This document shows positions 5,747 through 46,161 of a stretch of DNA of 64,000 nt, one piece after another. This DNA comes from Planctomycetaceae bacterium (lineage in GTDB: Bacteria > Planctomycetota > Planctomycetia > Pirellulales > PALSA-1355), in contig PLYM01000047.1 in the NCBI GenBank assembly GCA_003153375.1, forward strand, positions 1 through 64,000. The letters are read 5' to 3'. A program made the translations under genes and the position numbers. Each line of letters starts with the position of its first letter. Positions within the stretch are counted from its first letter, which is position 1. A model generated the notes under the pieces. The model did not search any database and was not told the origin of the DNA. It saw only the letters and a program-made list of their open reading frames with translations.

Positions 5747-5752
5747 TACACA

Positions 5753-5827: not shown

Positions 5828-5884
5828 GTTGCTCAACTCGGCCGGCCATGCGACAGGATCGGGCCGTTTCACAGGATGTGATGT

Positions 5885-7858: not shown

Positions 7859-7909
7859 CTTGCGATGCCGTGCGAGACGACAGCAGTTTGACAATCGACG
7901 GGATAGATC

Positions 7910-24725: not shown

Positions 24726-26519
24726 ATGGCGGTGCTTCTGCAACTTGTCGATGCCCATAAGAGCTATGGGCATCAAGCCCTGCTCGATGGCGCTGAGGTG
24801 ACGATCACCGACGCCCACAAAGTCGGATTTGTCGGCCGCAATGGCGCGGGCAAGTCGACCCTCTGCCGGGTGCTGCTGGGCGATGAAGAGCTGGACAAAG
24901 GCGAAGTGGTCCGCCATCCCAAGCTGCGGCTGGGCTACCTGCGGCAGCACGACCCGTTCGCGCCCGGCGAAACTGTGCTCGAATTCCTGATGCGTGACAG
25001 CGGCCAGCCCGATTGGCGGTGCGGCGAAGTGGCCGGCCGTTTCGAGCTCAAGGGACCGCTGCTGGATGGCCCGATTCAGAAGCTGTCGGGTGGCTGGCAG
25101 ACGCGCGTCAAGCTGGCGGCGCTGTTGCTGCACGATCCTAACTTGCTGCTGCTCGACGAGCCGACGAACTTTCTCGACTTGCGCACGCAGATTCTGCTCG
25201 AGCACTTCCTGCGCGAGTTCCGGCAGGCATGTTTGATCGTTTCGCACGACCGTGCGTTTCTAGGCGCCACGTGCACCCAGACGCTTGAGCTCTCGCGCGG
25301 CAAGCTGACGATGTTTGCCGGTCCGATCGATGCCTTTTTGATCAACCAGGCCGAGCGTCGCGATCACGATCAGCGCGTCAACGCGGCGGTCGAGGCCAAA
25401 CGCAAGCAGTTGGAAACATTCATCGACAAGAACCGGGCTCGCGCCAGCACCGCTTCACGGGCCCGCTCCAAAGGCCGGCAGCTCGAGCGATTGCAAAGCG
25501 TCGAAGTGGCAGGTGAAGAGCCCACGGTGAGAATGCGAGCGCCGCAAGTCGAGGCGCGCAAGGGCCCGGCCCTGCGATGCTCGGAGCTGGCGATCGGCTA
25601 TCCGGAACACGAAGTGGCCAGCGACATTCAGGTGGAGATCGAACACGGCAGCCGCGTGGCGATCGTGGGCGACAATGGTCAAGGCAAAACGACGTTCCTG
25701 CGCACGGTCGTCTCCTCGCTGGAGCCGTTGGCCGGGCAAATCCGCTGGGGTTATGGTTGCGATATTGGCGTCTACGCGCAACACGTCTATACCAGCCTGA
25801 CGGAAAACCGCACCGTGCTGGAACAGCTGGAATACGTCGCGGCGCCGGGAACGAAGTCGCAGGTGTTGCTCGATCTGGCCGGCAGCTTCTTGTTTCGCGG
25901 CGAGCACGTGCAAAAACCGATCAAAGTGCTCAGCGGTGGCGAGCGAGCCCGTTTGTGCCTGGCCGGCCTGCTGCTCAGCCAGCACAACATCCTGGTACTC
26001 GACGAGCCGGGCAACCACTTGGACGTCGACACCGTCGAGTCCCTGGCGGAGGCTCTGATCGACTATCAGGGCACCGTGATCTTCACGAGCCACGACCGGC
26101 ATTTCATGAAGCGCGTGGCCACGTCCGTGGTCGAAGTACGCGCCGGTCGGGTGGTCAATTATCGCGGTGACTACGACTCCTACCTGTATTATGTCAACAA
26201 GGAAATCGACGACGGCGAGCGTGAACTGGGAGCGAAGACTGCGCCAGCCGGCCCCACCAAAGGTGCCGCGCCGCGCGTCGATCGCAAGGAGCGGGGCCAA
26301 AAGCAACGCGAGACGCGCAAGGAGCTCGCGGCCCTGGAACGCAACATCGCAAAGCTCGACGAGCGTCGTCGCGAGTTGAGCGCGCAACTGCTCAAGTCAA
26401 CGGACCCGGCCGAGGCGTTACGGTTGCACACCGAGATCACGGCGATTGCCAGCGAGCTGAAGCCGATCGAAGAGCGCTGGTGCGAGCTTCAAGAGCTCGC
26501 CGAGGCCGAAGAAGTCTAG
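24726..26519 (+). CDS. ABC-F family ATPase (Uup/EttA-like, ribosome-associated)
   Basis: 597 aa, soluble, no membrane segments. Two ABC domains are present. The first has Walker A GRNGAGKST (about 38-46), signature LSGGWQTRV and Walker B LLLLDEPTNFLD. The second has Walker A GDNGQGKTT, signature LSGGERARL and Walker B ILVLDEPGNHLD, where G replaces the usual T of EPTNHLD. The linker between domains is rich in Arg/Lys (KNRARASTASRARSKGRQ), and a C-terminal coiled coil (about 515-595) is Uup-like. ABC-F proteins act on ribosomes or on branched nucleic acids, not as transporters. The stop overlaps that of the convergent GT41 gene by 4 bases. Confidence 0.9.
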   Translation: MAVLLQLVDAHKSYGHQALLDGAEVTITDAHKVGFVGRNGAGKSTLCRVLLGDEELDKGEVVRHPKLRLGYLRQHDPFAPGETVLEFLMRDSGQPDWRCGEVAGRFELKGPLLDGPIQKLSGGWQTRVKLAALLLHDPNLLLLDEPTNFLDLRTQILLEHFLREFRQACLIVSHDRAFLGATCTQTLELSRGKLTMFAGPIDAFLINQAERRDHDQRVNAAVEAKRKQLETFIDKNRARASTASRARSKGRQLERLQSVEVAGEEPTVRMRAPQVEARKGPALRCSELAIGYPEHEVASDIQVEIEHGSRVAIVGDNGQGKTTFLRTVVSSLEPLAGQIRWGYGCDIGVYAQHVYTSLTENRTVLEQLEYVAAPGTKSQVLLDLAGSFLFRGEHVQKPIKVLSGGERARLCLAGLLLSQHNILVLDEPGNHLDVDTVESLAEALIDYQGTVIFTSHDRHFMKRVATSVVEVRAGRVVNYRGDYDSYLYYVNKEIDDGERELGAKTAPAGPTKGAAPRVDRKERGQKQRETRKELAALERNIAKLDERRRELSAQLLKSTDPAEALRLHTEITAIASELKPIEERWCELQELAEAEEV

Positions 26520-31525: not shown

Positions 31526-31559
31526 GCCAGACTGATCCCGGCAGTCGAATGGGCCATTT

Positions 31560-33365
31560 TCAAGCTTCCGTCCCTCGTGTCGGTTCCAGGCACCAGTCAG
31601 TCCACATCCGTCGGTAGGCGGCTTCGAGCTTACGCGTGAAGCCAACGGCATCGAGCAGAATCGAGGCCCGCATTCTCTCGCGCAATTCGCCACGCAACCG
31701 CGCGAGCCGGTCGAGATCGGCCGCCAGGTGCCGGGCAATATCCAGATAACCCTCGCGCGTGTCGGCGATCAAGTCTTGCAGATCCAAATTCACGAGCGCG
31801 CTGCTGCCGAAACGCGAGGCGTAGGTCTGGCCGGCCAGCGAGACAACCGGCACGCCCTGCCAGAGGCAATCGCAGGTGGTCGTGTGGCCATTGAAGGGAA
31901 AGGGGTCCAAAGCAATATCAACGCGATTGATCAGCTTGAGGTACTCGGCTCGCGAACGACGCCCGGCCACCTCGATGCGGTCGGTGCTGACGCCCTGCCG
32001 CTCGAAGATCGAACGGATCTGATCGCGCACTTCCTGCGCTACACGCGCCTGCAGAATCAGCCGTGAACGCGGGACAGCGGCCAGAATTTGCGCCCAAGTG
32101 GTCAACACCTGCGGTGTGACCTTGAGATAGTTATTCAGCGACCCGAACGTGATCAGGCGGTTCGTCATCGCCGGCAGCGCGGTAACGGGCGGAGCGTCGG
32201 CCGAAGGCAGATAGGTGAAAAACGAACCGGGAATTCGCACCAGCCGCTCGGTGTGCAGTCGGTCGGTCGACCCGGGAGGATCCGACCAATCGTCCGTCAA
32301 GCGATAGTCCATGGCCAACATGCCAGTCGTGTTTTGATAGCCGATATAGGTCACCTGCACGGGGGCCGGTTTGCGGGCGAACACAAACAGCCGATGTTCG
32401 CTCAGGTGCCCTGTCAGGTCGACAAGGATGTCGATCCGGTCGTGGCGCACCAACTCGCTGGTCTGCTGGTCGCTCAACCCGGCGATCTCGCGCCAGTGGT
32501 CGGCATGTCCTTGCAGTCGCCGCGTCGTGGCGTCGCCTTCCGAGATCAGTGCGGAATTGTAGCAGAAGACTTCGACGGCCCGATGGTCGTGGGCGGCCAG
32601 AATCGGCTCCGTGAAGAAATTAACCGCGTGGGCCCGGAAATGAGGCGACACGTAGCCGACGCGTAGCCGGCGATCGGGCGTGCGATCGTTGAGATGCGTC
32701 GCAGCGCTTCGCGTGAGCGGATCGGCGTACTGGCGGGCCCAGTTGCGATGCTCCGTCGAAATGCTCTCGGGGTCGCACCCCGGATGAAAGTTCAGGGCGT
32801 AGAGCAGCAGGCTGGCGCATACGGCATGCTGGCCATCGAGTCGGATCGCGGCGCGAAATTGTTCGATGGCGGCATCGAGTTGACCTTGTCGCATCAGGCC
32901 GACGCCGTAGTTCGCGACGATGTCGGGATCGTGCGGAGCCAACTCCGACGCGCGGCGAAACTCGAATAAGGTCTCTTCGGTCCAGCCCGCCAGATTCAAG
33001 GTGTCGGCCAAGTTACAATGAGCCGCCGCGTAGTTTGGATCGAGTTCCACGGCGCGGCGAAAGGCCTGGATGGCCGCCGCGGATTGGCCCTCGGAGCGCA
33101 GGACACTGCCCAGGTGATTATGCGACTCTGCCAGATTGGGCTGCACGGCCAGTGCCACCAGGTGGCAGGCCTTGGCTTCGGCGAACCGCCGCTGGTCCCA
33201 CAGCAAGGTGCCGAGCTCATTGTGGGCTGCCACGAAGTCGGGCCGCAGGCGCACGACTTCGCGATAAGCCGCTTCGGCCTCGACCAAGGCGCCTTGCCCG
33301 CGGAGGGCGCGCGCCCGCTGATGCTCAGTCATGGCAAGATCGACAATTTCGGGCTCAACGGTCAT
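31560..33365 (-). CDS. TPR-repeat O-GlcNAc transferase (SPINDLY/GT41-like), copy 3, short TPR arm
   Basis: 601 aa. The GT41 domain is like copies 1 and 2 (RLRVGYVSPHFRAHAVNFFT; VDLTGHLSEHR; QVTYIGYQNTTGMLAMDY; LNNYLKVTPQVLTTWA; FNGHTTTCDCLWQGVPVVSL; YASRFGSSALVNLD), but the N-terminal arm holds only about five TPR units. GSSAL replaces the GGSGL of the other copies. The ATG at 33365 is selected because the longer frame overlaps the methyltransferase gene; it sits 40 bases after that stop. The reduced TPR arm suggests a smaller or different set of protein targets. Confidence 0.88.
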   Translation of the reverse strand: MTVEPEIVDLAMTEHQRARALRGQGALVEAEAAYREVVRLRPDFVAAHNELGTLLWDQRRFAEAKACHLVALAVQPNLAESHNHLGSVLRSEGQSAAAIQAFRRAVELDPNYAAAHCNLADTLNLAGWTEETLFEFRRASELAPHDPDIVANYGVGLMRQGQLDAAIEQFRAAIRLDGQHAVCASLLLYALNFHPGCDPESISTEHRNWARQYADPLTRSAATHLNDRTPDRRLRVGYVSPHFRAHAVNFFTEPILAAHDHRAVEVFCYNSALISEGDATTRRLQGHADHWREIAGLSDQQTSELVRHDRIDILVDLTGHLSEHRLFVFARKPAPVQVTYIGYQNTTGMLAMDYRLTDDWSDPPGSTDRLHTERLVRIPGSFFTYLPSADAPPVTALPAMTNRLITFGSLNNYLKVTPQVLTTWAQILAAVPRSRLILQARVAQEVRDQIRSIFERQGVSTDRIEVAGRRSRAEYLKLINRVDIALDPFPFNGHTTTCDCLWQGVPVVSLAGQTYASRFGSSALVNLDLQDLIADTREGYLDIARHLAADLDRLARLRGELRERMRASILLDAVGFTRKLEAAYRRMWTDWCLEPTRGTEA

Positions 33366-33405
33366 GAATTGGATCCGCCCAGCGGCGTCGAAGCTGTTAT
33401 CGCGG

Positions 33406-34167
33406 TCACTCGGGACGGGATCCGTCGATGCGGCCGACGCGCGCATTCAAGGGCCAGGTTACGGTCTGCACCGTTTCCAGTGCTCCCCAGGCCGCTGTCA
33501 GTTCAGCGCGAACCAGGTCGAGCGGGTCGAAGCCGCGGACTTCGTTGAAGCGCGCGACGCTCGACCATGTTCCAAGATAGCCGATCAAGTCGACCAGGTT
33601 CCAGCGGGCGGTCATCTCGATCCGGGGCGGTTGAATTTCGCCGAATGGAAAAGCGATCGTGTCGTAGCGCTGCTCGACTTGCCGGCGTTCCGGCGGCCAG
33701 TGTTCGCCTAGTATTTCAGCATACAACCGCCAGACGACCCGGTCGACGCTGGCCGAAACCGTGGCCAACCCATAACTCCACACAGCCAGCACGCCGCCCG
33801 GCCGGCAGACTCGCCGGACCTGGGCATAGAAACGGTCGCGATCGAACCAGTGCAGCGCCTGGGCCACCGTCACCAGGTCCACCGACGCGGTGGCCAGTGG
33901 ACAATCCTCGGCCGACGACACCAGGTAGCGAACTCGCGAACAGGCCTGGGCGTGAGCAATCTGTGAGGTGCTGGCGTCGGTGGCGATCACCTCGTCGAAG
34001 AACTCCGCCAATCCTGCCGCCGCCTGACCATTGCCCGTTCCGCAGTCCCACGCCAGTCCCCGCCGCTCAGTCAGGCCGGAGAGGAACTCGAACCACGCAT
34101 GCGGATAGCGGGGCCGAAATTGTGTGTACTGGTCTGCCTGTTTTGAGAAGTGATCTTTGAACGGCAC
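33406..34167 (-). CDS. Class I SAM-dependent methyltransferase (GTG start)
   Basis: 253 aa. The Rossmann-type methyltransferase_11 core shows motif I LAWDCGTGNGQAAAGLAEFF, motif II VIATDAS, motif III/IV VDLVTVAQALHWFD and a following VRRVCRPGGVLAVWSYG. The N-terminal DHFSKQADQYTQFRPRYP pattern is typical for one subfamily of small-molecule methyltransferases, and the GTG at 34167 is only three residues before it. The frame is open to 34275, but a perfect TATAAT at 34206-34201 lies downstream of that, ruling out the longer start if it is the promoter. First gene of the GT41 operon. Substrate unknown. Confidence 0.82.
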   Translation of the reverse strand: MPFKDHFSKQADQYTQFRPRYPHAWFEFLSGLTERRGLAWDCGTGNGQAAAGLAEFFDEVIATDASTSQIAHAQACSRVRYLVSSAEDCPLATASVDLVTVAQALHWFDRDRFYAQVRRVCRPGGVLAVWSYGLATVSASVDRVVWRLYAEILGEHWPPERRQVEQRYDTIAFPFGEIQPPRIEMTARWNLVDLIGYLGTWSSVARFNEVRGFDPLDLVRAELTAAWGALETVQTVTWPLNARVGRIDGSRPE

Positions 34168-34359: not shown

Positions 34360-35757
34360 ATGATGTTTCTTGCCAATGCAATGATGCGGAGGATGTTTCG
34401 CGTCGCGGTCACCGTCCTGATCGGATTGCCGGCGGCGCGCTCGGCGACGGCGGCAGATACCCAGCGCACGGTTGTGATGGTCAGTGTCGACGGCCTGGCT
34501 GCATTTTATCGAGACGATCCGCAGGCCGAGATGCCGACGATTCGTGCGCTGGCCGATGCGGGCGCTTGGGGACGAATGAAAGCGTCGACTCCGACCGTGA
34601 CCTGGCCCAACCACACGACGCTCGTCACGGGCGTCAAGCCGGCCCGGCATGGCGTCGTGGGCAACGACTATTATGACCGCGATCAGCGGCGTCGCGTCGC
34701 ACTCATCTTGGATCCGGAGTTCGACAAGGAACAAATCATCAAAGTGCCCACGGTCTATGACGTCGCCAAGTCCAAGGGACTGACTACGGCCGCCGTGCGC
34801 TGGCCGGCTTCGCGAAACGCCAAATCCTTGGACTGGCAGATGCCCGAGGTGGGGTCGAACGAGTTGCTGCACAAATACACCACGACGGCGATCATCAAAG
34901 AGTGCCAGGCTGCGGGCGTGTGGGCGGATGGCGAGCCGACCAGCTCGGGAGGCCGTGACCTGTACATCGTCTCGGACGAAACGGCCACGCGGGTGTTCAA
35001 GCACATTCTCCACTCCCATCGTCCCAACCTGGCGCTGCTGCACGTGATTCATGTCGATCACACGGAGCACGTGAGCGGCCCACGATCGCCCGAGGCTTAT
35101 GCGGCGATTCGAGCGGCCGACGAGCAGGTGCGAGAAATCTGGGAACTGCTGAAGCGCGACTTCGCCGGCCAGGCGACGCTGGTCATCGTTTCGGACCACG
35201 GCTTTTCGCCCATCGAGCACACGATTCTGCCGAACGTGACGCTGCGCGACGCGGGCTTGGTCGAAGTGCAAGACAAGAACGTGACGGGCGGAGCCGTGCA
35301 CGTGGTCGTGCAAGGCGGCTCGGCCCTGGTCTATGTGCTCGACAGGCCCCGCCGAGCCGAAATCGTGGAGACAATCAAGCGGAAGTTCACCGGCTCGACG
35401 GGCATCGGCAAGGTGGTCGGGCCTGGACAGTTGCACGACCACGGAGTGGCCGAGCCGACTGACGATCCGCATGCACCGGACATGATTCTATTCGCCTCCG
35501 AGGGCTATGCCTTCGCCGAAACGGCCACTGGCACGGCAGCCATGATCGATGAATCCAAGCGGCGCGGAACTCATGGGCATGACGAGAACCTGCCGAACCT
35601 GCACGCCACGTTCGTCGCCTGGGGAGCCGGAATCAAGCCAGGAACTCAGTTGGGTCTGTTCGACAACACGGACGTCGCCCCCACGATTGCGGCGCTGTTG
35701 GGACTGTCGATGGGCGAGACGGATGGCAAGCCCCTGGCGGCTGCCCTAGAGAAGTAG
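34360..35757 (+). CDS. Secreted type I phosphodiesterase / nucleotide pyrophosphatase (alkaline-phosphatase superfamily)
   Basis: 465 aa. A signal peptide (about residues 1-32) ends in ARSATAA. The ENPP-like catalytic fold shows VVMVSVDGL (metal-binding D), STPTVTWPNHTTLVTG (nucleophile Thr in the TVTWPNH context), HVIHVDHTEH (metal ligands) and TLVIVSDHGF with a downstream GTHGH (remaining metal ligands). It hydrolyses phosphodiester or pyrophosphate bonds of an extracytoplasmic substrate. The ATG at 34360, preceded by AGGAG, is preferred over an upstream TTG. The stop overlaps the end of the convergent FixH-like gene by 12 bases. Confidence 0.9.
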   Translation: MMFLANAMMRRMFRVAVTVLIGLPAARSATAADTQRTVVMVSVDGLAAFYRDDPQAEMPTIRALADAGAWGRMKASTPTVTWPNHTTLVTGVKPARHGVVGNDYYDRDQRRRVALILDPEFDKEQIIKVPTVYDVAKSKGLTTAAVRWPASRNAKSLDWQMPEVGSNELLHKYTTTAIIKECQAAGVWADGEPTSSGGRDLYIVSDETATRVFKHILHSHRPNLALLHVIHVDHTEHVSGPRSPEAYAAIRAADEQVREIWELLKRDFAGQATLVIVSDHGFSPIEHTILPNVTLRDAGLVEVQDKNVTGGAVHVVVQGGSALVYVLDRPRRAEIVETIKRKFTGSTGIGKVVGPGQLHDHGVAEPTDDPHAPDMILFASEGYAFAETATGTAAMIDESKRRGTHGHDENLPNLHATFVAWGAGIKPGTQLGLFDNTDVAPTIAALLGLSMGETDGKPLAAALEK

Positions 35758-36276
35758 AGTCAGTCGACGGCGCCAAACCAGGTAGCGGTGCGTGCCGAAC
35801 AGCACGACCACGCCCAGTGGCCAGCCGAACCACGGCCATTCCGTCAGCCAAGGAGGCAAGGGCCCGGCGGCCTGCACGGCGAAGCGAACCGTCCCCTGCC
35901 CTTGCGGACCATCGCAGGCCACCGCGACGTCCCAGGTGCCCTCGGCGGAGATCTTCAACAGCGCGGCACGCAGCAGTTTATTCGTGGCGGCATCGACCGT
36001 GGCCCTGCCTTGGATCGATGTGCCTGAAGGATGGGCCGACGTGAGCGTCACGACCACTTCCGCGTCATTCACGCTCCGCCCCGTCTGGACGTCTTGGACG
36101 AGCACGCTGACATCAATCGGTCCGGCACGTAGCGGGTTGGGCGCGGTGAAGACAGAAACCTGATAGCCGCCCAACCTCTCGATGCAGCACAGAGTACCGC
36201 CATCGCCGCACGCACGCGTGCTCAGCATGCCCAACAGCAGGGTCGATAGAATCAAGATCGGGCAGCATGACCACAT
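35746..36276 (-). CDS. FixH/YtkA-like membrane protein of the respiratory operon
   Basis: 176 aa. An N-terminal signal or anchor helix is followed by an extracytoplasmic beta-sandwich domain (VSVFTAPNPLRAGPIDVSVLVQD; VVVTLTSAH; WDVAVACDGPQGQGTVRFAVQ) and a C-terminal transmembrane helix (WFGWPLGVVVLFGTHRYLVW). This topology and the beta-domain resemble FixH/CcoH and YtkA-like proteins, which are linked to copper handling or stability of heme-copper oxidases. It contains CGDGG and CC near the N-terminus. It is the last gene of the cox/bc operon, 27 bases after the CtaG-ferredoxin fusion. Functional assignment is by topology and context. Confidence 0.6.
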   Translation of the reverse strand: MWSCCPILILSTLLLGMLSTRACGDGGTLCCIERLGGYQVSVFTAPNPLRAGPIDVSVLVQDVQTGRSVNDAEVVVTLTSAHPSGTSIQGRATVDAATNKLLRAALLKISAEGTWDVAVACDGPQGQGTVRFAVQAAGPLPPWLTEWPWFGWPLGVVVLFGTHRYLVWRRRLTLLL

Positions 36277-36303: not shown

Positions 36304-38631
36304 TTATCCCGAGACCGGCAACGTGCCGCGCATCTCCATCGGCTGGAGCACGATCCAGACTCCGACGACGAACAGCAACACGATCATCACGGCCCAGGGC
36401 GCGACTGCCTTGAGTGCTTGCGAAGCTCGCGGGGCCTGCGTCTCGGCGATGCGCAATGCCGTGTACAGGGAGAGCAGCAAGCCAAAATCGAGCATCAGAA
36501 TCTCGATACGCGGCACCCAATCGGCGACCGGCTGGCAACAGGAACGTTGCCATTCGGCATCGCCCCAGCCTTGCCAGCCCAGATCGGTGGCAAAACGCTG
36601 CCAGGCAGGCACAACGGTGTCGTAGCTCGTCAGCAGATGGAAGCTGTAGTGAGCGAGCCACATGCCGAAACCGATCGGAACCAGCGCGAACGAAAAGCGG
36701 GTCGCCGTCGTCAACCAGCTCTCGTTCGACCGGTTGCCCAAGCGGCTCACCGCCGTCGCGATCACGACAAGCATCAACGGCAGGACGACCAGCGCCAACA
36801 GATAGCCGGCCGTTGTCATCAACACGCGCGGCGCATCGCCCAACCGCGCACGCCACGCGTCTTGCCAGGCGACGACCGGAGCGACCATGCCGGCGGCATT
36901 GGCGAACGCACCGAATACGAGCACCAACACCAGTGCCGCCAGGTCGGGCCGTCGGCTGAAGCGTCCCAGGCCTGAGCGCATGGGGTCGGTCCACAGGGTC
37001 TGGCCTGGCGCCACCGTCAAGACGCCGACGTTTTCGTGGGGACACGCCCGGGCGCAATCGAGACAAAACGTGCAATCAAGATTCCCCCGCTTGCGCGGCT
37101 GAAAGAGATGCGTTTGGCAGCCCGCAATGGCGTCGCTGCCGCGAATGCACTCCTGGGTCGTACACGACGAACAGACGGCCGGTTCGCGGACCTTTACTTC
37201 CAACGGCGAAACGAGTGATTGCACGAAGTTAAACTGGCCGATTGGGCAGACATACTTGCAGAACGAGCCGCCTTGGAAGAAGCCATCAACGACGAACGCC
37301 GTGGCGAAATACGTCAGGGTAATCACGGCCGTCAGCCAAGGACTGTTCCACAAAGCCCAGGCTTCGTAGCTCCAAAGGAACAGTGCAACCAGCGCGGTTG
37401 CCAGCCATTTGCTGCGCAGCCAGCGGGGCCACGCCCGGCCGCGCGGCAGCCATCGCGCGGCCAAGGCGCGCGGCAGCGTGAATGGACAAGCGAAGCAAAA
37501 AAAGTTGCCGCCGGCCAACAGCCCCACGATCAGCAGGCCGCGCCAGTGAATCCACGGCACGACACCAGCCAGGTTCATGGGAGCGGTTTGTGGCCCGCGC
37601 AGTCCGTCAACAATGATCGCGATGGCGACCAGCGCCAGGACCGTCTGTGCGAGGCGCCGCGAGAATCGCCAGCGGAGAAAATCGCCCAGCCAAGGGACTT
37701 CCAGCAAGTCAAACCCCTGTGGTGCGGGGCGCCCCTGACCGAGGATTGCCAATTGGGCCGATGCGGTCGCGAGTCGGCGTTGACGGGCCTCGGCAGCGGG
37801 CTGGTGTCGCACTCTCTTCGAGCCGCCCAGAAGTCCGACGCCAATAGTGAACAGCGGCACGAGGAACATCAGCGACCCGGGAATCCACATCATCAGCCCG
37901 GCGGCCGACTGATCTTCGAGCGCCGACAGGCTGCTAATGCGTGGCACGCTGGCATAGTGGGGATAGAGCACGGTGCTCGAAAAAGTCAGCCAGGCCGAGA
38001 GCACGGTGTTTTGTATGTCGGCTAGGAGCAGGTAAGGCACCAGTAGCCACCGCGACCAGTGGGGCCGGCTCGGATAGGGCCGGACCACGGGATACCAAAA
38101 CAGTAGCGCACTGGCTGTGAAGCACAGGTGCTCGGCGATGTGCCAGGCGTCGCGGCTCAGCGCCAGTTCATAAGCGCGCGGCACGTGCCACAGCCAGGTC
38201 GTGCCCACATACAACGGCCACGCCACGAGTGGATGCGTCAATCGCGCGAAGATCCGCCGCAATCCCGGCGAGCGCAAGAGCGGCGCTACCCAATAAGTGC
38301 GTATTGGCTTGGGCAGTCCGCGCACCATCGGGAACAGCGGCCAGGCGGCCCACAGCAACGGCGGGGCGACCATCATCAACAGCAAGTGTTGCAGCATGTG
38401 AACTTGCAGCAACAGCGGAGCGAACGGCTCGAGCGGCGATGCCAGGGCTAGGAAGATCGCCGCCAGTCCGCCGGCAAACGCGGCCAATCGCCCAGCATTC
38501 CACCGCGCGGGGTCTCGGTGGTGAAGTTCGAGCCAACCGCGCAGATAAACTCCGCCGCTCAGCAGCAACGTTGCCGTCAGCCAAGGATCGGTGGGCCAGG
38601 AGCGGAGAAAAGCATCCATGGTGGAGTTCAT
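36304..38631 (-). CDS. CtaG (caa3 assembly) - CcoG/NapH-like polyferredoxin fusion protein
   Basis: 775 aa. Residues 1-270 form a multi-helix caa3_CtaG domain: HMLQHLLLMMVAPPLL, WLWHVPRAYELAL, WHIAEHLCFTASALLFWYPV and ADIQNTVLSAWLTFSS. Residues about 325-640 form a membrane-bound ferredoxin of the CcoG/NapH/NosR class, with FFCFACP (C379, C382), FCKYVCP (C458, C462), a Cys group at C487/C490/C495/C505 and CTFCLDCARACP (C520, C523, C526, C530). Four more helices end the protein. CtaG supplies copper to caa3 oxidase CuB, and CcoG-type proteins reduce Cu(II); combining the two in one chain suggests a coupled copper reductase/insertion factor. The adjacent FixH-like gene fits that idea. Confidence 0.85.
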   Translation of the reverse strand: MNSTMDAFLRSWPTDPWLTATLLLSGGVYLRGWLELHHRDPARWNAGRLAAFAGGLAAIFLALASPLEPFAPLLLQVHMLQHLLLMMVAPPLLWAAWPLFPMVRGLPKPIRTYWVAPLLRSPGLRRIFARLTHPLVAWPLYVGTTWLWHVPRAYELALSRDAWHIAEHLCFTASALLFWYPVVRPYPSRPHWSRWLLVPYLLLADIQNTVLSAWLTFSSTVLYPHYASVPRISSLSALEDQSAAGLMMWIPGSLMFLVPLFTIGVGLLGGSKRVRHQPAAEARQRRLATASAQLAILGQGRPAPQGFDLLEVPWLGDFLRWRFSRRLAQTVLALVAIAIIVDGLRGPQTAPMNLAGVVPWIHWRGLLIVGLLAGGNFFCFACPFTLPRALAARWLPRGRAWPRWLRSKWLATALVALFLWSYEAWALWNSPWLTAVITLTYFATAFVVDGFFQGGSFCKYVCPIGQFNFVQSLVSPLEVKVREPAVCSSCTTQECIRGSDAIAGCQTHLFQPRKRGNLDCTFCLDCARACPHENVGVLTVAPGQTLWTDPMRSGLGRFSRRPDLAALVLVLVFGAFANAAGMVAPVVAWQDAWRARLGDAPRVLMTTAGYLLALVVLPLMLVVIATAVSRLGNRSNESWLTTATRFSFALVPIGFGMWLAHYSFHLLTSYDTVVPAWQRFATDLGWQGWGDAEWQRSCCQPVADWVPRIEILMLDFGLLLSLYTALRIAETQAPRASQALKAVAPWAVMIVLLFVVGVWIVLQPMEMRGTLPVSG

Positions 38632-38647: not shown

Positions 38648-40123
38648 TCATGGTCGGGTCGTCGGTGAGCTCGACCAGACCTTGGCAGGCGGTTGACCCG
38701 ACGGTCGGAGGCTGACGAGGAAGTCGGCCAGCACCGTCATTTCGGCTGGACTCATCTGCTTGCCATAGGCGGGCATGTTGCCGCCGCCGGGCGTGCCATT
38801 GCTGACCTGATCGATCAACTGATCGCGCGTGAGCCTGGTGCCGACCGTGGTCAGGTCGGGGCCGCGGCGTCCGCCGACTCCTTCGAGTGCGTGGCAGTTG
38901 CGGCAGTTCTTGTATTGAAACACGAGCGAGCCTTGCAGTTCGAGCGGCGAGCTGCGCTCAACCACGTCGGTGGGGATCGCGGCGCTGGTCCAGGCCCTCA
39001 TTTCCGGCGACCAAGGGGCCGTCACGCCCAGATACGTCAGCGCGCCGAGGGTCGTATAGATCACGATCACCGCTAGCACCGCCACCGGCCGGCGGCTCGG
39101 CGCACGGTGACCCCGATTGCTCACCACCGGCACGAGAAACAAAATGCCAATCACGACCACGGGGAACACGAGCATGATGAACGTCTCGGCCGCCGGCGGG
39201 CTAAGTGCCAGCAGCGCGAACAGCCACAGGAAGGGCCACTCGGGACGCGGATTGGCACCGCCCAGGGTCGGATCAGGTGGGCCCGTGGGACCCTTGGGGC
39301 CAACCACGGCCGCGATCGCGACGACCACGATCACCGCCGCGGCAGAAAAAAACAGGTCCCGCAACATCGCGTCGCCCAGAAACGGCACGCCCTGGCGCAG
39401 TTCTTCGTGATACTCGGCTTCATACGTCGCCGGATCGACGGGCCGATCGGCAGCCGGCGGGGCGCTGATGCCACAACGGAGCACCAACCACAGGTGCAGC
39501 ACCAGGAAGGTCAGCAGTGCGCCGGGAATCACGAAGACGTGCAAGGCGAAGAAACGGCTGAGCGCGGCGGCGCCAATGATCTCGCTCCCCAAAAGAGCGT
39601 GTACGACCCAAGGCCCGATCACGGGCACGCGCCCCGCCATCGAGCCGGCGACCGCCAACCCCCAATAGGCGTCGGGATCCCAGCGCAGGATTTGCCCAGA
39701 GAAGAACATGCCCAGCGTGCACAGCAACAGCACGACCCCGACCATCCAAGTCAGCTCGCGCGGATATTTGTAAGCCCCGTGCAGAAAGACTTGCGTCATG
39801 TGGGCCAGCAGCATCACGACCATGCCCGAGCCGGCGTAATAGTGCAATGCGCGCAGAAACCAGCCGAATGGATGCTCGTAATCGAGATAGACCAGACTCT
39901 CGTAAGCCTCATTGGCCGCGGGGACGTAGACGAGCGACAGCCCGATGCCGGTGAGGATTTGAATCAGCAGGAACGTCAACGAGGCACTGCCGAAGACATA
40001 CCACCAACCCATCGGGCCATCGGCGGCGCGCGGAATCGGATGTCGCAACATCGGCAACAGCGTCTCGCTGTAGCCGACGCGGACGTCGATCCAATTTCCC
40101 AATTCGCGCAGCAAGTGGTTCAT
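38648..40123 (-). CDS. Cytochrome b/b6-type subunit fused to a C-terminal cytochrome c domain
   Basis: 491 aa. A multi-helix cytochrome b: one heme pair is H94 and H108, the other H195 and H210. The second spacing of 15 residues is the b6-type value (14 in bc1). The quinol-site motif is PEWP (294-297) instead of the more usual PEWY. A periplasmic monoheme cytochrome c domain ends the protein (CRNCH near residue 421, followed by GRRGPDLTTVGTRL and NMPAYG, with methionine as likely axial ligand). It oxidises quinol and passes electrons to the Rieske centre and cytochrome. The ATG at 40123 is preferred over a TTG at 40144. Confidence 0.9.
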   Translation of the reverse strand: MNHLLRELGNWIDVRVGYSETLLPMLRHPIPRAADGPMGWWYVFGSASLTFLLIQILTGIGLSLVYVPAANEAYESLVYLDYEHPFGWFLRALHYYAGSGMVVMLLAHMTQVFLHGAYKYPRELTWMVGVVLLLCTLGMFFSGQILRWDPDAYWGLAVAGSMAGRVPVIGPWVVHALLGSEIIGAAALSRFFALHVFVIPGALLTFLVLHLWLVLRCGISAPPAADRPVDPATYEAEYHEELRQGVPFLGDAMLRDLFFSAAAVIVVVAIAAVVGPKGPTGPPDPTLGGANPRPEWPFLWLFALLALSPPAAETFIMLVFPVVVIGILFLVPVVSNRGHRAPSRRPVAVLAVIVIYTTLGALTYLGVTAPWSPEMRAWTSAAIPTDVVERSSPLELQGSLVFQYKNCRNCHALEGVGGRRGPDLTTVGTRLTRDQLIDQVSNGTPGGGNMPAYGKQMSPAEMTVLADFLVSLRPSGQPPAKVWSSSPTTRP

Positions 40124-40156
40124 GAAATGTCTGGTGCTTGGCAAAGCAGCCGGGTC

Positions 40157-40705
40157 TCAGGTGGTTTGATCAAGGGTGTCGTGTAAGGTTGGATAGTGCG
40201 GTGCTTGGACTTCGAGGTTCCCGTCGACGACGCGCCACTCGCAATGGAACAATCCTCGCGGCGGCGGCCCCGAAGCCCGTTGGCCGTTGGCGTAATAGAC
40301 CCCGCCGTGACAAGGGCACATGAACAGTCCCGATTGCGGAAACCACGAGACCGGGCAGCCCAAGTGGGCGCAATTGACGGCGAACACCAGAAAGCGATCG
40401 ACAGCTCCTTCGCCCGGACCTTCGCGGCGGACGAACACCCCGGTGTGAGCGGTCACGCCATCCCACGGCTGCCGCAGCGGGTTGTCAAACGCGACCGTGC
40501 GTGTTTCGCCGAACGGAAATTCGGCGACCTTGCCAAGCGCGACCCAATGCACCGATTGCTTGCGCTGCTGGAACAAATAGCCGACGAACGGCACCGATAC
40601 CAGCGCGGCAGCGACGGCGCCCGCGGCCGAAGTAAGCCAGCGAAAGAAAACGCGCCGCGGCGGATGCGGCTGCTCGGTTGGAGGTTGAATGATCTCGTGA
40701 TCCAT
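40157..40705 (-). CDS. Rieske 2Fe-2S protein of the bc complex
   Basis: 182 aa. An N-terminal twin-arginine-like RR plus membrane anchor (RRVFFRWLTSAAGAVAAALV) is followed by the Rieske domain. Cluster ligands are C112/H114 (in NCAHLGC) and C130... in CPCHGG (C130, H133); C117 and C132 would form the stabilising disulfide. It accepts electrons from quinol at cytochrome b and donates to a cytochrome c. The ATG at 40705 is chosen by the family-like length; the longer frame overlaps the preceding cytochrome gene. Gaps on both sides are 19 and 33 bases. Confidence 0.93.
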   Translation of the reverse strand: MDHEIIQPPTEQPHPPRRVFFRWLTSAAGAVAAALVSVPFVGYLFQQRKQSVHWVALGKVAEFPFGETRTVAFDNPLRQPWDGVTAHTGVFVRREGPGEGAVDRFLVFAVNCAHLGCPVSWFPQSGLFMCPCHGGVYYANGQRASGPPPRGLFHCEWRVVDGNLEVQAPHYPTLHDTLDQTT

Positions 40706-40724
40706 CGATCGTGCTCGGGCCAGG

Positions 40725-41489
40725 TTATGGAACGTTGGACGTATGTGGATTGGCGAGTTGGCCCTGCTCGTCGCGCCAGTGGGCCAACAGCGCGACCAGG
40801 TCGTCAATCTGCGGTGAAGTCAGAGTCGAAAAGTCGTCGGGCCGGCCATCCTTGCCCGCGAAGCTGGGCATGCCCAAGTCGGAGCGGCCCGTGATAATGA
40901 TCCGCCGCAGAGCCTGGTTGCTGATCAGGGCCAGGAATGCCGGCTCGTGAATCGCGTTGTTCGCGTCCGAGCCCTCTCCTCCCCTGCCGTTCTCGCCGTG
41001 GCAGCCCGCACAAGCCACGGCGAACAGCGTGGCGCCGCGCTCTCGATCGCCGGGCTGACGCGTGGAGTCATCCCCGTCAGCTGGCAGGTAGGATGGCAAG
41101 GGTTCGTCGAGCTTTTCGTCCGATTTCCAATGCGATTTGAGTCCCTGAGCGAGAGCGGTCACTTGGGCGTCTGAGAGTTCGCCGCCGGCTTCGATGCCGA
41201 AAGCCGGCATGGGCGTGCCGCGACGTCCGCGGCGGATCACGCGCTCGAGCTCGGCATCAGGCACAATGGCAAGAAACAGCGGGTCATTCAATGGTGGCGC
41301 GGGCCCCTGTTGTCCGTCGGCCCCGTGGCAGCCGACACAGTGCTGCCGATAGAGGGGCACGAAACTGGTGAGTTCTTCGGCAGCGCGCTGCCGCGTGCCT
41401 GGGTCCGGCTTGCCCGGCCAGTCGCAGCCGACGGCCAGCAGTGCCCCGAGCGCTAGGACGAACCCGTTGAGTGTGTGCCGAGAGGCCAT
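40725..41489 (-). CDS. Diheme cytochrome c lipoprotein
   Basis: 254 aa. A lipoprotein-type signal ends in LAVGC (C22). Two cytochrome c domains follow: CVGCH at 51-55 with a later MPAFG ligand, and CAGCH at 160-164 with GMPSFAG as sixth-ligand region. It is a membrane-tethered electron carrier that probably connects the bc subunits with the CuA/heme of CoxB. The ATG at 41489 begins the signal; the longer open frame overlaps the neighbouring membrane-protein gene and is not credible. Confidence 0.9.
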   Translation of the reverse strand: MASRHTLNGFVLALGALLAVGCDWPGKPDPGTRQRAAEELTSFVPLYRQHCVGCHGADGQQGPAPPLNDPLFLAIVPDAELERVIRRGRRGTPMPAFGIEAGGELSDAQVTALAQGLKSHWKSDEKLDEPLPSYLPADGDDSTRQPGDRERGATLFAVACAGCHGENGRGGEGSDANNAIHEPAFLALISNQALRRIIITGRSDLGMPSFAGKDGRPDDFSTLTSPQIDDLVALLAHWRDEQGQLANPHTSNVP

Positions 41490-41503
41490 AAGTCGTCGCC
41501 GAG

Positions 41504-42787
41504 TTAATCCGTCAGGAATTCCCTGGTCCGATCCGGACCGTGTCCGGCCGGGGGGATATGAATCTCTTCGGAGCGCACCACCACCAGGGCGGCTACGAGG
41601 CCGAAGATAAACTGCGAGGCGATGAATGCCGGCCAATCGACGCGCTGTTGCAGCACCGGATTTACCACGCCCATCAACCCAAAGCTGGCTGCCGTCCACA
41701 GCATGGGCATCAGCAATCCACCCCAAGACACCGCTGCTGGGAGGGCCGGCAGCCGAGGCACGATGGCAAACGCCAGCCCGAAACTGAGGGACAGGACAGC
41801 ATGCGCCGCGAGTGCCGCCAGGAACCATTCGGATTGAAACTGCTCCAGGTCGGCCACCGAAGGCTCGGCCGCGTGCCGCATGGCCATCGCGGCCAACAGA
41901 TTGATCGGATACCAAATGCCGTGATGCGTCAGCCAACCCCAAAGCGCCGCGGGTATCGGCATCAGCAACCCGCCGGCGGCGCCACCCAAAAGCCCGGCCA
42001 ACATGGGATTAAGCTTTTCGAATTGCATGAAGACGATCGCCGCGACCACGCCGAAGACAAACTGCGACACGACGAACCACGGCCAATCGATTTGCCCACG
42101 AACCGTCGGATTGACGATTCCCAGGGCCACGAAACTAACCGCGGTCCACAGCAATGGCATCGACAGCGCGCCCCAGGCCAGCGGCTTGGCGATTTGGGGC
42201 AGCATCGGCATGAGCACGCCATAAATCAATCCGAACGCGAGCGAAACGATGATGTGAATCGAAATCGAGACGCCCAGCAGGGTCGGTTGATACTGCTCCA
42301 AGTCGGCGATTGTCAGGTCCTCGACGCCAGGCAACGCCAGGCCGGCCAGCAAATTGACCGGATACCAGATTCCGTGGCCACTCAACTGGCCATAGGCGAG
42401 CGCCGGCAGCGGCATGACCAATCCACCGACAAGGCCCCCTTTGATGCCGGCCGAAATCGGATGCACGCGCTCGGGCAACCGCAGGCGATGGCCCGGCATG
42501 CCCGACCGCAAATGTTCGACGCCGCCGGGTAGTGCCGCCACCGGACCCGGGCGACGCTCGAACGCCACCAACGGTTCGTTTAGATGACCACGGCCCGGCC
42601 GGAGCTGGCCGATCCAAATGCCAAGACCCACGGTGAACAAGATGCCGCCGATCACGCTCAGCGCCAGCGAGGTGGCCACGCCGGCTGCCACGAGCGCGAT
42701 AGCCAGCGCCAACACCAGCGGCGCGGCGGTGGGCTCGGGCATCTCAATTGACCGCGGTTCCGACGGAGAAGTTGTTTCAGGGGTCAT
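41504..42787 (-). CDS. Internally duplicated polytopic membrane protein of the cox operon (unknown family)
   Basis: 427 aa. After a variable N-terminus with two helices (about 12-55), two homologous units of about 150 residues are visible, at about 118-270 and 271-415. Parallel segments are GGLVMPLPALAYG/GGLLMPIPAALWG, GHGIWYPVNLLAG/HHGIWYPINLLAA, IADLEQYQ/VADLEQFQ, SLAFGLIYGVLMPMLP/SLSFGLAFAIVPRLP, GIVNPTVRGQIDWPWFVVSQ/GVVNPVLQQRVDWPAFIASQ. Its start overlaps the coxC stop in an ATGA arrangement, so it is translationally coupled to the oxidase. No function is known to me; it may be a structural or assembly subunit of the supercomplex. The ATG at 42787 is used. Confidence 0.8.
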   Translation of the reverse strand: MTPETTSPSEPRSIEMPEPTAAPLVLALAIALVAAGVATSLALSVIGGILFTVGLGIWIGQLRPGRGHLNEPLVAFERRPGPVAALPGGVEHLRSGMPGHRLRLPERVHPISAGIKGGLVGGLVMPLPALAYGQLSGHGIWYPVNLLAGLALPGVEDLTIADLEQYQPTLLGVSISIHIIVSLAFGLIYGVLMPMLPQIAKPLAWGALSMPLLWTAVSFVALGIVNPTVRGQIDWPWFVVSQFVFGVVAAIVFMQFEKLNPMLAGLLGGAAGGLLMPIPAALWGWLTHHGIWYPINLLAAMAMRHAAEPSVADLEQFQSEWFLAALAAHAVLSLSFGLAFAIVPRLPALPAAVSWGGLLMPMLWTAASFGLMGVVNPVLQQRVDWPAFIASQFIFGLVAALVVVRSEEIHIPPAGHGPDRTREFLTD

Positions 42788-43404
42788 AGGCCACCACCCC
42801 GGCCGCCAACATAAACGACCAAAAAGACCACGATCCACACGACATCCACAAAATGCCAATACCAGGCCACCAGTTGAGCGCTGATGCAGTTGTCCCTGGT
42901 CACATTGCGGCTGAGCGCCAGCCCGAGCACCACCGTCATGGCAATGACTCCGCCGGTGACGTGCAAACCGTGGAAGCCGACCAGGGTGTAATAGGTCGTG
43001 CCGAACAAGTTGCGGCCAATCGTCAGCTGATGATCGACGATCAACTCCCGCCACTCGACGGCCGTGCCGACCAGAAAAGCGATGCCCAGCGCGATCGTGC
43101 CCGCCCAGAGAAAACTGAACAGCCGTTGTCGCCCATGCTCGATTGCCAACTGGGCCCCGTGAATGAGGACGCTACTCGACACCAGGCAAATCGTCGTGCC
43201 GATGACGAGCGGCAGCGACAGGGCTTCGGCGGGCGTGGGGCCAACGGTGTCCTGTCCCAAGAACGTGACGTAGGTGACGATCAGCGTGCTAAAGAAGGCC
43301 ACCTCCGACACAAGAAAGGCCACCATGCCCCATTGCGCAGCGCAGAGACCCTGCTCGGCCACAAGCGGCGGCGGCGATGGGAATGTGTGGGTTGCTGTAG
43401 TCAT
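42784..43404 (-). CDS. coxC: Cytochrome c oxidase subunit III
   Basis: 206 aa, five-helix short form typical of caa3/SoxM-type bacterial oxidases. Marks are GMVAFLVSEVAFFSTLIVTYV, SSSVLIHGAQLAIEHG, FLVGTAVEWRELIVDH, FYTLVGFHGLHVTGG-like (YYTLVGFHGLHVTGG here) and AWYWHFVDVVWIVVFLVVYV. Two in-frame ATGs lie at 43413 and 43404; the second has AGGA at a better distance. It is 49 bases after coxA and 4 bases overlap with the following membrane-protein gene. Confidence 0.95.
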   Translation of the reverse strand: MTTATHTFPSPPPLVAEQGLCAAQWGMVAFLVSEVAFFSTLIVTYVTFLGQDTVGPTPAEALSLPLVIGTTICLVSSSVLIHGAQLAIEHGRQRLFSFLWAGTIALGIAFLVGTAVEWRELIVDHQLTIGRNLFGTTYYTLVGFHGLHVTGGVIAMTVVLGLALSRNVTRDNCISAQLVAWYWHFVDVVWIVVFLVVYVGGRGGGL

Positions 43405-43453
43405 GAATGACATCCTGGCGGCGCTTTCAGGGCGACGCTTTCAAGGCTCCGAT

Positions 43454-45124
43454 CTACTCGTATTGCCAATCGGGATCTTCGGGATGTTTGGCGTCCCACA
43501 GGGGTCGTCGGCTGTGTACGACCGGCAATTCCTCGAAGTTGTAGCTTGGCGGCGGCGAGGTGGTGGTCCACTCCAGCGTCCAGGCGTCCCACGGGTCGTC
43601 GCCCGCCGGCGTGCCGTTTCGCCACGATGCGACGAGGTTGTAGACGAAGATCGCATAGCTAGGCGTTTGAATGAGTGCACCGAGCGTGGTGAGTTGATTC
43701 CAAAGTGCCCAGCCACGGTCGGGATCATAGGTATAGATGCGCCGCGGCATGCCCAGCATGCCCGAGACGTGCATCGGGCCAAAGGTCAGGATGAACCCGA
43801 TGTAGAGCAGCCAGAACTGCCAACGCGCCAGCCTTTCAGACAGCATCCGTCCGGTCATCTTGGGATACCAGTAGTAGATGCCGGCGAAGGTGCCGAACAA
43901 CGTGCCGCCGATCAGCACCCAATGAAAATGGCCGACGACGAAGTAGCTGTCGGACAATTGAAAATCGAGCGGCACCGAGGCCAGCATGATGCCGGTCAAG
44001 CCGCCAATCACGAACATCGACAAGAATCCGCAAGCAAACAGCATCGGCGACGCGAAGCGAATTCGCCCCCCGAACATCGTGGCCAGCCAGTTGAAGAACT
44101 TGATGCCGGTCGGAATCGAGACCAGCAAGCTGGCCGCGGCGAAAACCAAATCGAGCGTGCGGCTCATGCCGACGCAGAACATGTGATGAGCCCACACGCC
44201 CATGCTGATGAACACGATGGCCACGGTCGCGGCCGCCATGAATTCGTAGCCGAACAACACCTTGCGCGAAAAGACGGGGATCACCTCCGAGATCATGCCG
44301 AAGACCGGCAGGATCAGGATGTAGACCTCGGGATGACCAAAGAACCAGAACAGGTGCTGCCAGAGATAAGCCGAGCCGCCATTTTGCACGTCGAAGAAGT
44401 GCGCGCCCAACTGGCGATCGAACAAGATCATGACCAGCGCCGCAGTGAGCGGCGGCAGCGCGAACAGCATTTGCACGGCCGTCCAAAGCATCGTCCACAC
44501 GAAGAACGGCAGCTTGCGCATCGTCATGCCTGGGGCGCGCATCGCCAGTATCGTGGCCACGAAATTGACCGCCGCCGCGATGGTGCCGATGCCGCTGATC
44601 AACAAGCCCAACGCCCAAAAGTCCGTTGCCGGCCCACGAGCAAAGGTTTGTTCGGTCAGCGGCGCATAGGCAAACCAGCCGATCGCCGGCGCGCCGCCCG
44701 TGGCAAAACTGAAATAAACGAGCAAGCCGCCAAACAGCGTGATCCAAAATCCAAACGCGTTGAGCCGCGGAAATGCCATGTCGCGGGCACCGATCATCAG
44801 CGGCACGAGATAGTTGCCCAAGCCGATCAAGATGGGCATGCCAACGAAGAAGATCATCGTCGTGCCGTGCATGGTGAAGAGCTGGTTGAACGTGTTCGGC
44901 GCCAGCACCTCGGCGCGTGGAAAGAACAGCTGCCAGCGCATCAGCAGGGCCTCGATGCCGCCGATCACGAGAAACACCAAACTCATCAGAATATAGAGAA
45001 TGCCGATCTGCTTGTGGTCGACCGACGTCGTCCAGGTGTGCAGCATCGCCGTCAGGCCGAAGCGTCGCCCCGAGCCATCGTGGGTGGCGTTTTCGAACGG
45101 ATGTGCTGGGGGGGCCAAAGACAT
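43454..45124 (-). CDS. coxA: Cytochrome c oxidase subunit I (A-type heme-copper oxidase)
   Basis: 556 aa, 12 or more helices. Low-spin heme ligands are H86 and H401. CuB and high-spin ligands are H264 with Y268 of the His-Tyr crosslink (FFGHPEVYIL), H313/H314 (WAHHMF) and H399 (GHFHWVL). The K-channel lysine lies in PTGIKFFNW, and the HPE motif glutamate is present, so it is an A-family proton-pumping enzyme reducing O2. The ATG at 45124 (MSLAPPAHPFENATHDG) gives a normal N-terminus; the open frame further upstream overlaps coxB. It follows coxB by 14 bases. Confidence 0.97.
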   Translation of the reverse strand: MSLAPPAHPFENATHDGSGRRFGLTAMLHTWTTSVDHKQIGILYILMSLVFLVIGGIEALLMRWQLFFPRAEVLAPNTFNQLFTMHGTTMIFFVGMPILIGLGNYLVPLMIGARDMAFPRLNAFGFWITLFGGLLVYFSFATGGAPAIGWFAYAPLTEQTFARGPATDFWALGLLISGIGTIAAAVNFVATILAMRAPGMTMRKLPFFVWTMLWTAVQMLFALPPLTAALVMILFDRQLGAHFFDVQNGGSAYLWQHLFWFFGHPEVYILILPVFGMISEVIPVFSRKVLFGYEFMAAATVAIVFISMGVWAHHMFCVGMSRTLDLVFAAASLLVSIPTGIKFFNWLATMFGGRIRFASPMLFACGFLSMFVIGGLTGIMLASVPLDFQLSDSYFVVGHFHWVLIGGTLFGTFAGIYYWYPKMTGRMLSERLARWQFWLLYIGFILTFGPMHVSGMLGMPRRIYTYDPDRGWALWNQLTTLGALIQTPSYAIFVYNLVASWRNGTPAGDDPWDAWTLEWTTTSPPPSYNFEELPVVHSRRPLWDAKHPEDPDWQYE

Positions 45125-45138
45125 CGACAGCCTTCGTG

Positions 45139-46161
45139 CTAGCGCAAGGTCAGGAGATAGTTCACGATCGCCTCGAGGCGTGTCTCGGAAAGATCGAACG
45201 CGGGCATCAGGCAGCCCGGCTTCGTTGTCTGGGGATTGTGTATCCAGTCGGTCAGATTCTCTGGCGAATTCGGTATCTCGCCCGAGGCCAGTGTCTGGCG
45301 GCTCATCAGGTGGGTCAGGTCGGGACCAAAGGTGCCCTCGGCTGGTGTGCCGCGGATGCGATGGCAATTGACGCACGACTCGGCCATAAAGGCCTCGCGC
45401 CCAGTCTGAACCGCCACATTTTCAGCCGCGGGGGCTGATTCATTCGCCAACCAGCGTTCGAACTCGGCGGGCGGCTCGACGATCACGCGCAACAGCATGT
45501 TGGCATGTTGATCGCCACAGTATTCGGCGCATTGTCCGAGAAACAATCCCGGCAACTCGGTCTCGAGCATCAAATAGTTCGTGCGGCCGGGCAGCAGATC
45601 CATCTTGCCGTTGAGTCGTGGAACCCAGAAACTGTGGCAGACGTCGGCCGATTCCAAAGTCAAATGCACGCGGCGCGGCTGTCCCGTCTCGCTGACGGGC
45701 ATGTGCAACTCGTTGGCCGTGGTGAAGTTCAAGGGACGGCCGTCGTAGGTTTCGTAGCGATATTCCCACCACCACTGATGTCCGATGACCTTCACGAACA
45801 GCGCGTGATCGTCGAGTTGGGGCGCCGGCTGAGCGGCCTTGGCCTGCCACAACGTGCGCGTAATGGCCAGAATCAGAAAAAATACGATCAAGGTTGGCGC
45901 CGTGGTCCAGGCAATTTCAACCGGCTGGCTGCCATAGACTTGCGCCGGTTCGGCCGTGACTTCGGCCCGCGCGCGAAAGCGCCAGATGTTGTACAGCAGG
46001 ATGCCTTCGACCAGCACCAGAATCAACGCGAAGATGGCTCCGGTCAGAATGGCCAAGTCCTGAATCGATTGCGCCGCGGGCGAGGCCGGCGCGAAGATCG
46101 ACAGGTTTTGCGTGGCCGTCTCGCTGGCTGCGAGCAACGTCCCAGGATGAATGGCTTCCAC
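45139..46161 (-). CDS. coxB: Cytochrome c oxidase subunit II with fused cytochrome c domain
   Basis: 340 aa. Two transmembrane helices (about 38-60 and 88-104) are followed by the CuA cupredoxin domain with ligands H176, C211, C215, H219 and M222 (QCAEYCGDQHANM) and GHQWWWEYRYE. A cytochrome c domain with CVNCH at 263-267 and CLMPAF near the end makes it a caa3-type subunit that accepts electrons directly from the bc complex. It is the first gene of the nine-gene unit. A TATACT hexamer (46212-46207) lies about 46 bases upstream. Confidence 0.96.
   Translation of the reverse strand: MEAIHPGTLLAASETATQNLSIFAPASPAAQSIQDLAILTGAIFALILVLVEGILLYNIWRFRARAEVTAEPAQVYGSQPVEIAWTTAPTLIVFFLILAITRTLWQAKAAQPAPQLDDHALFVKVIGHQWWWEYRYETYDGRPLNFTTANELHMPVSETGQPRRVHLTLESADVCHSFWVPRLNGKMDLLPGRTNYLMLETELPGLFLGQCAEYCGDQHANMLLRVIVEPPAEFERWLANESAPAAENVAVQTGREAFMAESCVNCHRIRGTPAEGTFGPDLTHLMSRQTLASGEIPNSPENLTDWIHNPQTTKPGCLMPAFDLSETRLEAIVNYLLTLR

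Follow-up and report, generated by a model that had tools for sequence, protein, structure and literature searches.

A CtaG domain fused to a NapH/YccM-like polyferredoxin module in a protein linked to caa3-type oxidases

The role of the Caa3_CtaG family is still unsettled: in Bacillus subtilis active caa3 oxidase requires CtaG, and a role at CuB has been suggested (PMC9145763). Oxidase assembly has been suggested to call for a dedicated cupric reductase (PMC9145763, PMC13344008), of which CcoG, which is absent from Firmicutes, is the known example (PMC13344008, PMC7558416). CcoG reduces Cu(II) (PMC7558416) and probably belongs to the same superfamily as the redox half of the protein described here, as do NapH relatives, which exchange electrons with quinols and other partners (PMC8238504). 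The need for a local copper reductase in the assembly of aa3/caa3 oxidases has been put forward, but no protein was at hand for testing the idea (PMC13344008, PMC9145763). Here we describe a gene that offers one. It lies on a 64,000-nucleotide stretch of DNA from a Planctomycetaceae bacterium (contig PLYM01000047.1), referred to below as the window, and its product carries a CtaG domain and a redox module in a single chain.

Sequence, spread and predicted structure of the fusion

A preliminary description of the window held that CtaG and a polyferredoxin were joined in one 775-residue chain, which is borne out by the single frame and by matches to PF09678 and TIGR02163 (Table 1). The coordinates and the cysteine numbers 520, 523, 526 and 530 that it gave were also correct, with the minus strand left unstated. 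In a Pfam search of the window protein, Caa3_CtaG (PF09678) covers residues 28–263 with 190.5 bits against a cut-off of 27.7 and is the sole match at E 0.001, the redox half having none, while the Bacillus-type CtaG equivalog model (TIGR02737) stays below its cut-off with 45.8 bits against 279. The NCBIfam model for NapH/MauN (TIGR02163) aligns with residues 371–534 at E 3e-7 and 30 bits, against a cut-off of 213, and by sequence the redox half is a NapH/MauN homologue outside that subfamily. Over ten members the top Pfam match is Fer4_5 (PF12801), with a best E of 1e-4 and nine of the ten matching at E up to 1. Because the redox half lies under the Pfam and NCBIfam cut-offs, family models name the CtaG half alone, and the link between CtaG and a redox module is easily overlooked. 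The twelve cysteines of the redox half occur in the order C379xxC382P, C458xxxC462P, C487xxC490x4C495x9C505 and C520xxC523xxC526xxxC530P.

Table 1. Features of the fusion protein and of the operon that contains it
Feature	Position in window	Strand	Evidence
caa3-type oxidase subunit II, fused to a cytochrome c	45139..46161	minus	TIGR02866 over cut-off; PF00034
CoxA/CtaD, subunit I of the oxidase; probably starts further in	43454..45376	minus	TIGR02891, 720 bits, over cut-off
Oxidase subunit III (CoxC)	42784..43413	minus	PF00510
Membrane protein conserved in operon, true start probably further in	41504..43054	minus	Open frame, conserved neighbour
Di-haem cytochrome c, true start probably further in	40725..41942	minus	Open frame, PF13442 in two stretches
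Rieske iron-sulfur protein	40157..40807	minus	PF00355
Cytochrome b with a fused cytochrome c part, 16 nt upstream of the CtaG fusion gene	38648..40144	minus	PF00033, PF13442
CtaG-polyferredoxin fusion protein	36304..38631	minus	775 aa, ATG to stop, one frame, no internal stops
Caa3_CtaG domain, residues 1–268, seven helices	37828..38631	minus	PF09678 E 4e-56, alignment, AlphaFold2 model
Linker, predicted cytoplasmic, residues 270–307, positively charged, low model confidence	37711..37824	minus	
NapH/YccM-like core, residues 308–545: four helices, C379xxC382P, C458xxxC462P, cytoplasmic cluster region	36997..37710	minus	TIGR02163, hhalign, model
Two predicted [4Fe-4S] clusters: C487, C490, C495, C505 and C520, C523, C526, C530	37042..37173	minus	Cys spacing
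Five-helix C-terminal region, residues 546–775	36307..36996	minus	No Pfam or PDB relative in searches
HxxxH (His661, His665), candidate metal site near periplasmic helix end	36637..36651	minus	Invariance; placement from predicted topology
PMEMRG motif, residues 764–769, candidate periplasmic Cu ligands	36325..36342	minus	Conservation
Secreted or anchored YtkA-like protein of 176 aa, 27 nt after fusion; the operon ends with its gene	35746..36276	minus	PF13115 below cut-off

In a sample of 39 genomes of the same order, ten assemblies besides the window's own carry the fusion in one stop-free frame at 48–64% identity, one of them with a longer linker, and in one further genome it is split across two contigs. 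Scanning genome contigs with the redox half gave at least 460 relatives. Among the best 80 of these, 61 share a single frame with CtaG, 16 are unfused and contig ends truncate the other three, so that with the window included 62 of the 81 compared sequences are fusions. The fused relatives among the matches listed come from Planctomycetota, Verrucomicrobiota and Acidobacteriota with 45–64% identity, and two are on finished chromosomes (Lacipirellula limnantheis, L022, and Pan216, L031). Within a sample of the phylum the fusion was found in 11 of 342 genomes. The check across genomes that the preliminary description had proposed finds the same fusion in three phyla, together with a caa3-type oxidase in every fusion genome tested. 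An apparent triple fusion with YtkA at locus L087 was left out, since its junction spans unread bases (X). In G001, a 95% complete genome from the window's own genus, the fusion is missing and so is CtaG in any form; either the fusion is patchy even within this genus or it was lost to assembly gaps in G001.

To describe conservation we aligned 65 fusions. All 12 cysteines of the redox module are invariant (65/65), as are His78, His82, His149, His164 and His168 of the CtaG domain and His661, His665, Pro764, Met765 and Arg768 of the tail, while Asp240 and Met767 are each kept in 64 of the 65. All 65 have C379xxC382P where CcoG/FixG has the first of two CxxxCP motifs; the second is present as C458xxxC462P. 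The pair Cys698/699 is invariant in the first ten sequences and lost in about a third of the 65, and was ruled out as a copper site on that ground.

An AlphaFold2 model made with a 65-row alignment (mean pLDDT 90.3, pTM 0.75) has, in order, the seven CtaG helices, a low-confidence stretch at about 270–303, the NapH-like core with four helices, the region of the clusters and five further helices. From hydropathy and charge, the linker and clusters are predicted to be cytoplasmic, and the CtaG histidines, His661/His665 and PMEMRG to be on the outer face. Sequence and fold searches of the PDB with the whole protein and with the redox half gave no significant match, a relative of the five-helix region was found in neither Pfam nor the PDB, and a comparison of CtaG with the C-terminal helices gave no sign of a distant relationship.

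The redox half and its unfused relatives

The redox half had initially been called CcoG/NapH-type. In an hhalign profile comparison, with one or two template sequences for each family, it matches YccM at 97.4%, NapH at 96.5% and CcoG at 85%, while the CcoG/FixG model (TIGR02745) has no match at E 0.001 for the window protein or in genome G000. The NapH part of the name can be kept, as NapH/YccM-like, on the evidence of TIGR02163 and hhalign. The CcoG part cannot, and membership of CcoG is ruled out by the failure of TIGR02745, by the CxxCP motif and by the missing Ig-like domain. Judged from its sequence, the redox half appears to be a separate branch of the NapH/YccM/CcoG superfamily, distinguished by CxxCP, by the loose motif of its first cluster and by five tail helices that end in PMxMRG.

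A tree built from 81 redox halves separates the 16 unfused sequences from all others at a branch that has support 100, and a single change of state suffices. Being unrooted, the tree fits fusion and fission alike. These 16, from the best 80 of at least 460 relatives, belong to Chloroflexota, Gemmatimonadota, Bacteroidota, Rhodothermota and two Acidobacteriaceae. Their genes adjoin YtkA-like proteins and, in one Chloroflexota contig, the copper chaperone PCuAC (PF04314, E 3e-35); in three other Chloroflexota contigs the unfused gene is near coxA and coxB, and one unfused gene is about 4 kb from a separate CtaG. Others are found with FG-GAP/ASPIC proteins in gene sets from which cox genes are absent, and for this reason the redox module alone is not oxidase-specific.

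At five loci (L098, L100, L112, L113 and L114) the unfused redox half is near a small, very His-rich membrane protein (LAHWGEHLAQ, WHHIEHALL, CxCxWH), and most of these loci also carry large FG-GAP/ASPIC (CRTAC1-like) TPR proteins, forming a conserved gene set; L097 is similar, but the His-rich gene was not seen there. A deeper branch of relatives, with 29–31% identity, has an apparent YHS metal domain in front of the redox half. Three relatives of about 30% identity with such an N-terminal YHS-like domain (L106:4699-6609, L110:4777-6735 and L111:4238-6298) appear to sit among NapG-like ferredoxins, and another deeper-branch locus, L107, has a likely Sco-like gene at 7632-8717.

Operon context and proposed function

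The gene is part of an operon in which all genes are on the minus strand, in the order coxB-c, coxA, coxC, membrane protein, di-haem cytochrome c, Rieske protein, cytochrome b/c, fusion and YtkA-like gene. Neighbourhoods were counted at the 40 of 61 fused loci (among the best 80 of at least 460 relatives) that have more than 7.5 kb upstream. At these, coxA is on the same strand in 35 and cytochrome b/c in 36, and all nine genes are in order in 29. The fusion stands quite alone at four loci (L028, L034, L039 and L054), whose genomes have CoxA over the cut-off and carry the same operon elsewhere, from coxB to cytochrome b/c in three and from coxA to Rieske in the fourth. All 11 fusion genomes of the phylum sample have CoxA over the cut-off. 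The link between the fusion and a caa3-type oxidase is firm because of the operon order, the presence of CoxA in all 11 genomes and the operon found elsewhere in the four; the association proposed in the preliminary description therefore holds, in that every fusion genome tested has such an oxidase and the fusion is usually near the end of its operon.

The conserved membrane protein of the operon had no match in Pfam and NCBIfam searches. In the window it looks internally doubled, with a repeat around 'GHGIWYPVNLLAG', and its counterparts in most other genera are about 285 residues long. At locus L117 a CoxA-CoxC fusion occupies one frame (5572-7794), and the corresponding genome, G285, has a stand-alone CtaG, CcoG and cbb3. 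Elsewhere in the window are three tandem genes for long TPR proteins (26516-29002, 29042-31738 and 31560-33446, minus strand), which share a C-terminal part apparently resembling SPINDLY-type O-GlcNAc transferases, and a further TPR protein is encoded at 60343-62223.

The last gene of the operon had been described as FixH-like, a label that has to be withdrawn: its product has no match to FixH (PF05751) at E 0.001, and is YtkA-like by PF13115 (E 4e-4, 21.5 bits against a cut-off of 25.9). It appears to begin with a signal-like stretch, which is followed by a YtkA-type domain and, at the C-terminus, a helix. No column of His, Met or Cys reaches 40% conservation among 57 sequences, which makes the partner unlikely to be a CtaK-like copper chaperone; it may do the same job as the Ig-like domain of CcoG.

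CcoG itself, scored as TIGR02745 over the cut-off, is found in 77 of the 342 genomes of the phylum sample and in none of the fusion genomes tested (0/12 in the order, 0/11 in the phylum sample and 0/13 tested through the loci, the last including Acidobacteriota and Verrucomicrobiota). These counts overlap, two genomes being shared between the order and phylum samples and G000 with the loci set, and amount to up to 33 genomes. The Fisher p for CcoG absence against the fusion is 0.13 in the phylum sample and 0.011 pooled, for related genomes and uncorrected for kinship. CcoG goes with the cbb3 oxidase (ccoN), and ccoN is also below the cut-off in all 11 fusion genomes. Since the genomes are related and CcoG follows cbb3, its absence is a weak argument, and we dropped it as proof of replacement. 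It is compatible with the fusion being the sole reductase of this kind in these genomes.

We give an about even chance to the reading, the likeliest of those considered, that the fusion is a one-chain assembly factor of the caa3-type oxidase, in which the NapH/YccM-like half reduces copper and the CtaG half inserts it. Electrons would enter the two cytoplasmic [4Fe-4S] clusters that the cysteine spacing predicts in the NapH/YccM-like half, and would be led from there to the outer membrane face. Copper would be kept as Cu(I) at a site made up of His661, His665 and the PMxM motif at the end of the chain. The CtaG half tethered to this module, whose invariant histidines are predicted to face outward as well, would then hand the copper to the oxidase (CuB or CuA), and the YtkA-like protein may hold the complex at the outer face. 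We infer that Cu(II) is what the fusion reduces. The reading as a whole is supported by the conservation of the fusion and of its Cys and CtaG His residues in three phyla, by the operon and the co-occurrence with CoxA, by the lack of CcoG in the fusion genomes tested, and by the neighbours of the unfused relatives, which are YtkA-like proteins, once PCuAC and three times coxA/coxB. It is weakened because the redox half is not CcoG, NapH relatives serve quinols and other partners, some unfused relatives lie in gene sets that lack oxidase genes, the YtkA-like partner has no conserved metal ligands, and the lack of CcoG may merely follow from that of cbb3.

Somewhat short of an even chance is the wider proposal that these proteins, with their 16 helices, make up a family without an earlier name in which an iron-sulfur Cu(II) reductase is coupled directly to CtaG and a single molecule both reduces copper and inserts it. 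If this is true, caa3 oxidases in lineages that lack CcoG would have the fusion as their dedicated copper reductase, and CtaG would handle Cu(I) on the outer side of the membrane. The occurrence of the fusion in three phyla points to CtaG working with an iron-sulfur electron donor. It also suggests that oxidase assembly involves a reduction step, with copper as the most likely substrate.

The evidence from the operon and from co-occurrence would also fit an assembly factor of the same oxidase whose electrons go not to Cu(II) but keep the CuA cysteines, a Sco-type chaperone or haem-binding cysteines reduced. CuA needs reduced cysteines, which TlpA-type proteins provide for in other bacteria (PMC9145763), and the pair Cys698/699 would be in an outward loop in about two thirds of the fusions. 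We consider thiol reduction unlikely, as the pair is not conserved whereas the His and Met candidates are, and the literature ties CtaG to copper centres. It is improbable that the fusion is instead a working part of the bc-caa3 chain, with the NapH-like half feeding in electrons from quinol or a cytoplasmic donor and CtaG as the anchor. YccM and NapH are the nearest characterised relatives by profile, NapH-like proteins serve as electron-transfer modules (PMC8238504) and the gene is tightly linked with those for cytochrome b/c and Rieske; however, quinol oxidation is already supplied by the bc genes, CtaG is an assembly factor where tested, and the position of the gene away from the operon in four genomes fits a helper more than a subunit. 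That the frame is two genes joined by sequencing error, or a chance pair of neighbouring domains, is practically inconceivable, as stop-free homologues with 45–64% identity in many independent assemblies, including finished chromosomes, rule out such an artefact, and the model is confident with seven plus nine helices.

Comparison with known systems

The window protein resembles Caa3_CtaG proteins (PF09678) such as B. subtilis CtaG in its seven-helix domain, its conserved His and Asp residues and its linkage to a caa3 operon. The difference lies in the CtaG part being the N-terminal third of a 775-residue chain and scoring below the Bacillus equivalog model. NapH/MauN and YccM have the nearest profiles to the redox core, but lack CtaG and the PMxM tail and act in other pathways, and compared with them the C-x2-C-x4-C-x9-C spacing of the first cluster is odd. 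With CcoG/RdxA/FixG the window protein probably shares the superfamily, the form of a membrane protein with two [4Fe-4S] clusters (predicted here) and a connection to oxidase assembly (PMC7558416). It differs from CcoG in failing TIGR02745, in having CxxCP for the first CxxxCP, in not being tied to cbb3, and in having five helices in place of the Ig-like periplasmic C-terminal domain, with a YtkA-type protein encoded next door. That partner is distantly similar to CtaK (YtkA) of B. subtilis, which acts in oxidase copper assembly and has conserved His and Met, whereas the window partner has none conserved. CrpH (PepSY_TM) of Bordetella is another reductase-type membrane protein that supports haem-copper oxidases, and it overlaps with ccoG (PMC13038864); it belongs to a haem-based family unrelated in sequence to the fusion.

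We found no description of the fusion in the literature searched, from which subscription papers were mostly missing, and this is no proof of priority. The nearest parallel in architecture is CtiP of Corynebacterium glutamicum, which also combines CtaG with a second copper-related membrane module, has 16 predicted helices and serves the bc-aa3 supercomplex (PMC9145763). In CtiP the partner is a CopD-like domain that precedes CtaG, while in the window protein it is a putative iron-sulfur redox module that follows it. Both modules are of known kinds, and what appears to be new is their joining and the close link with a bc-caa3 operon.
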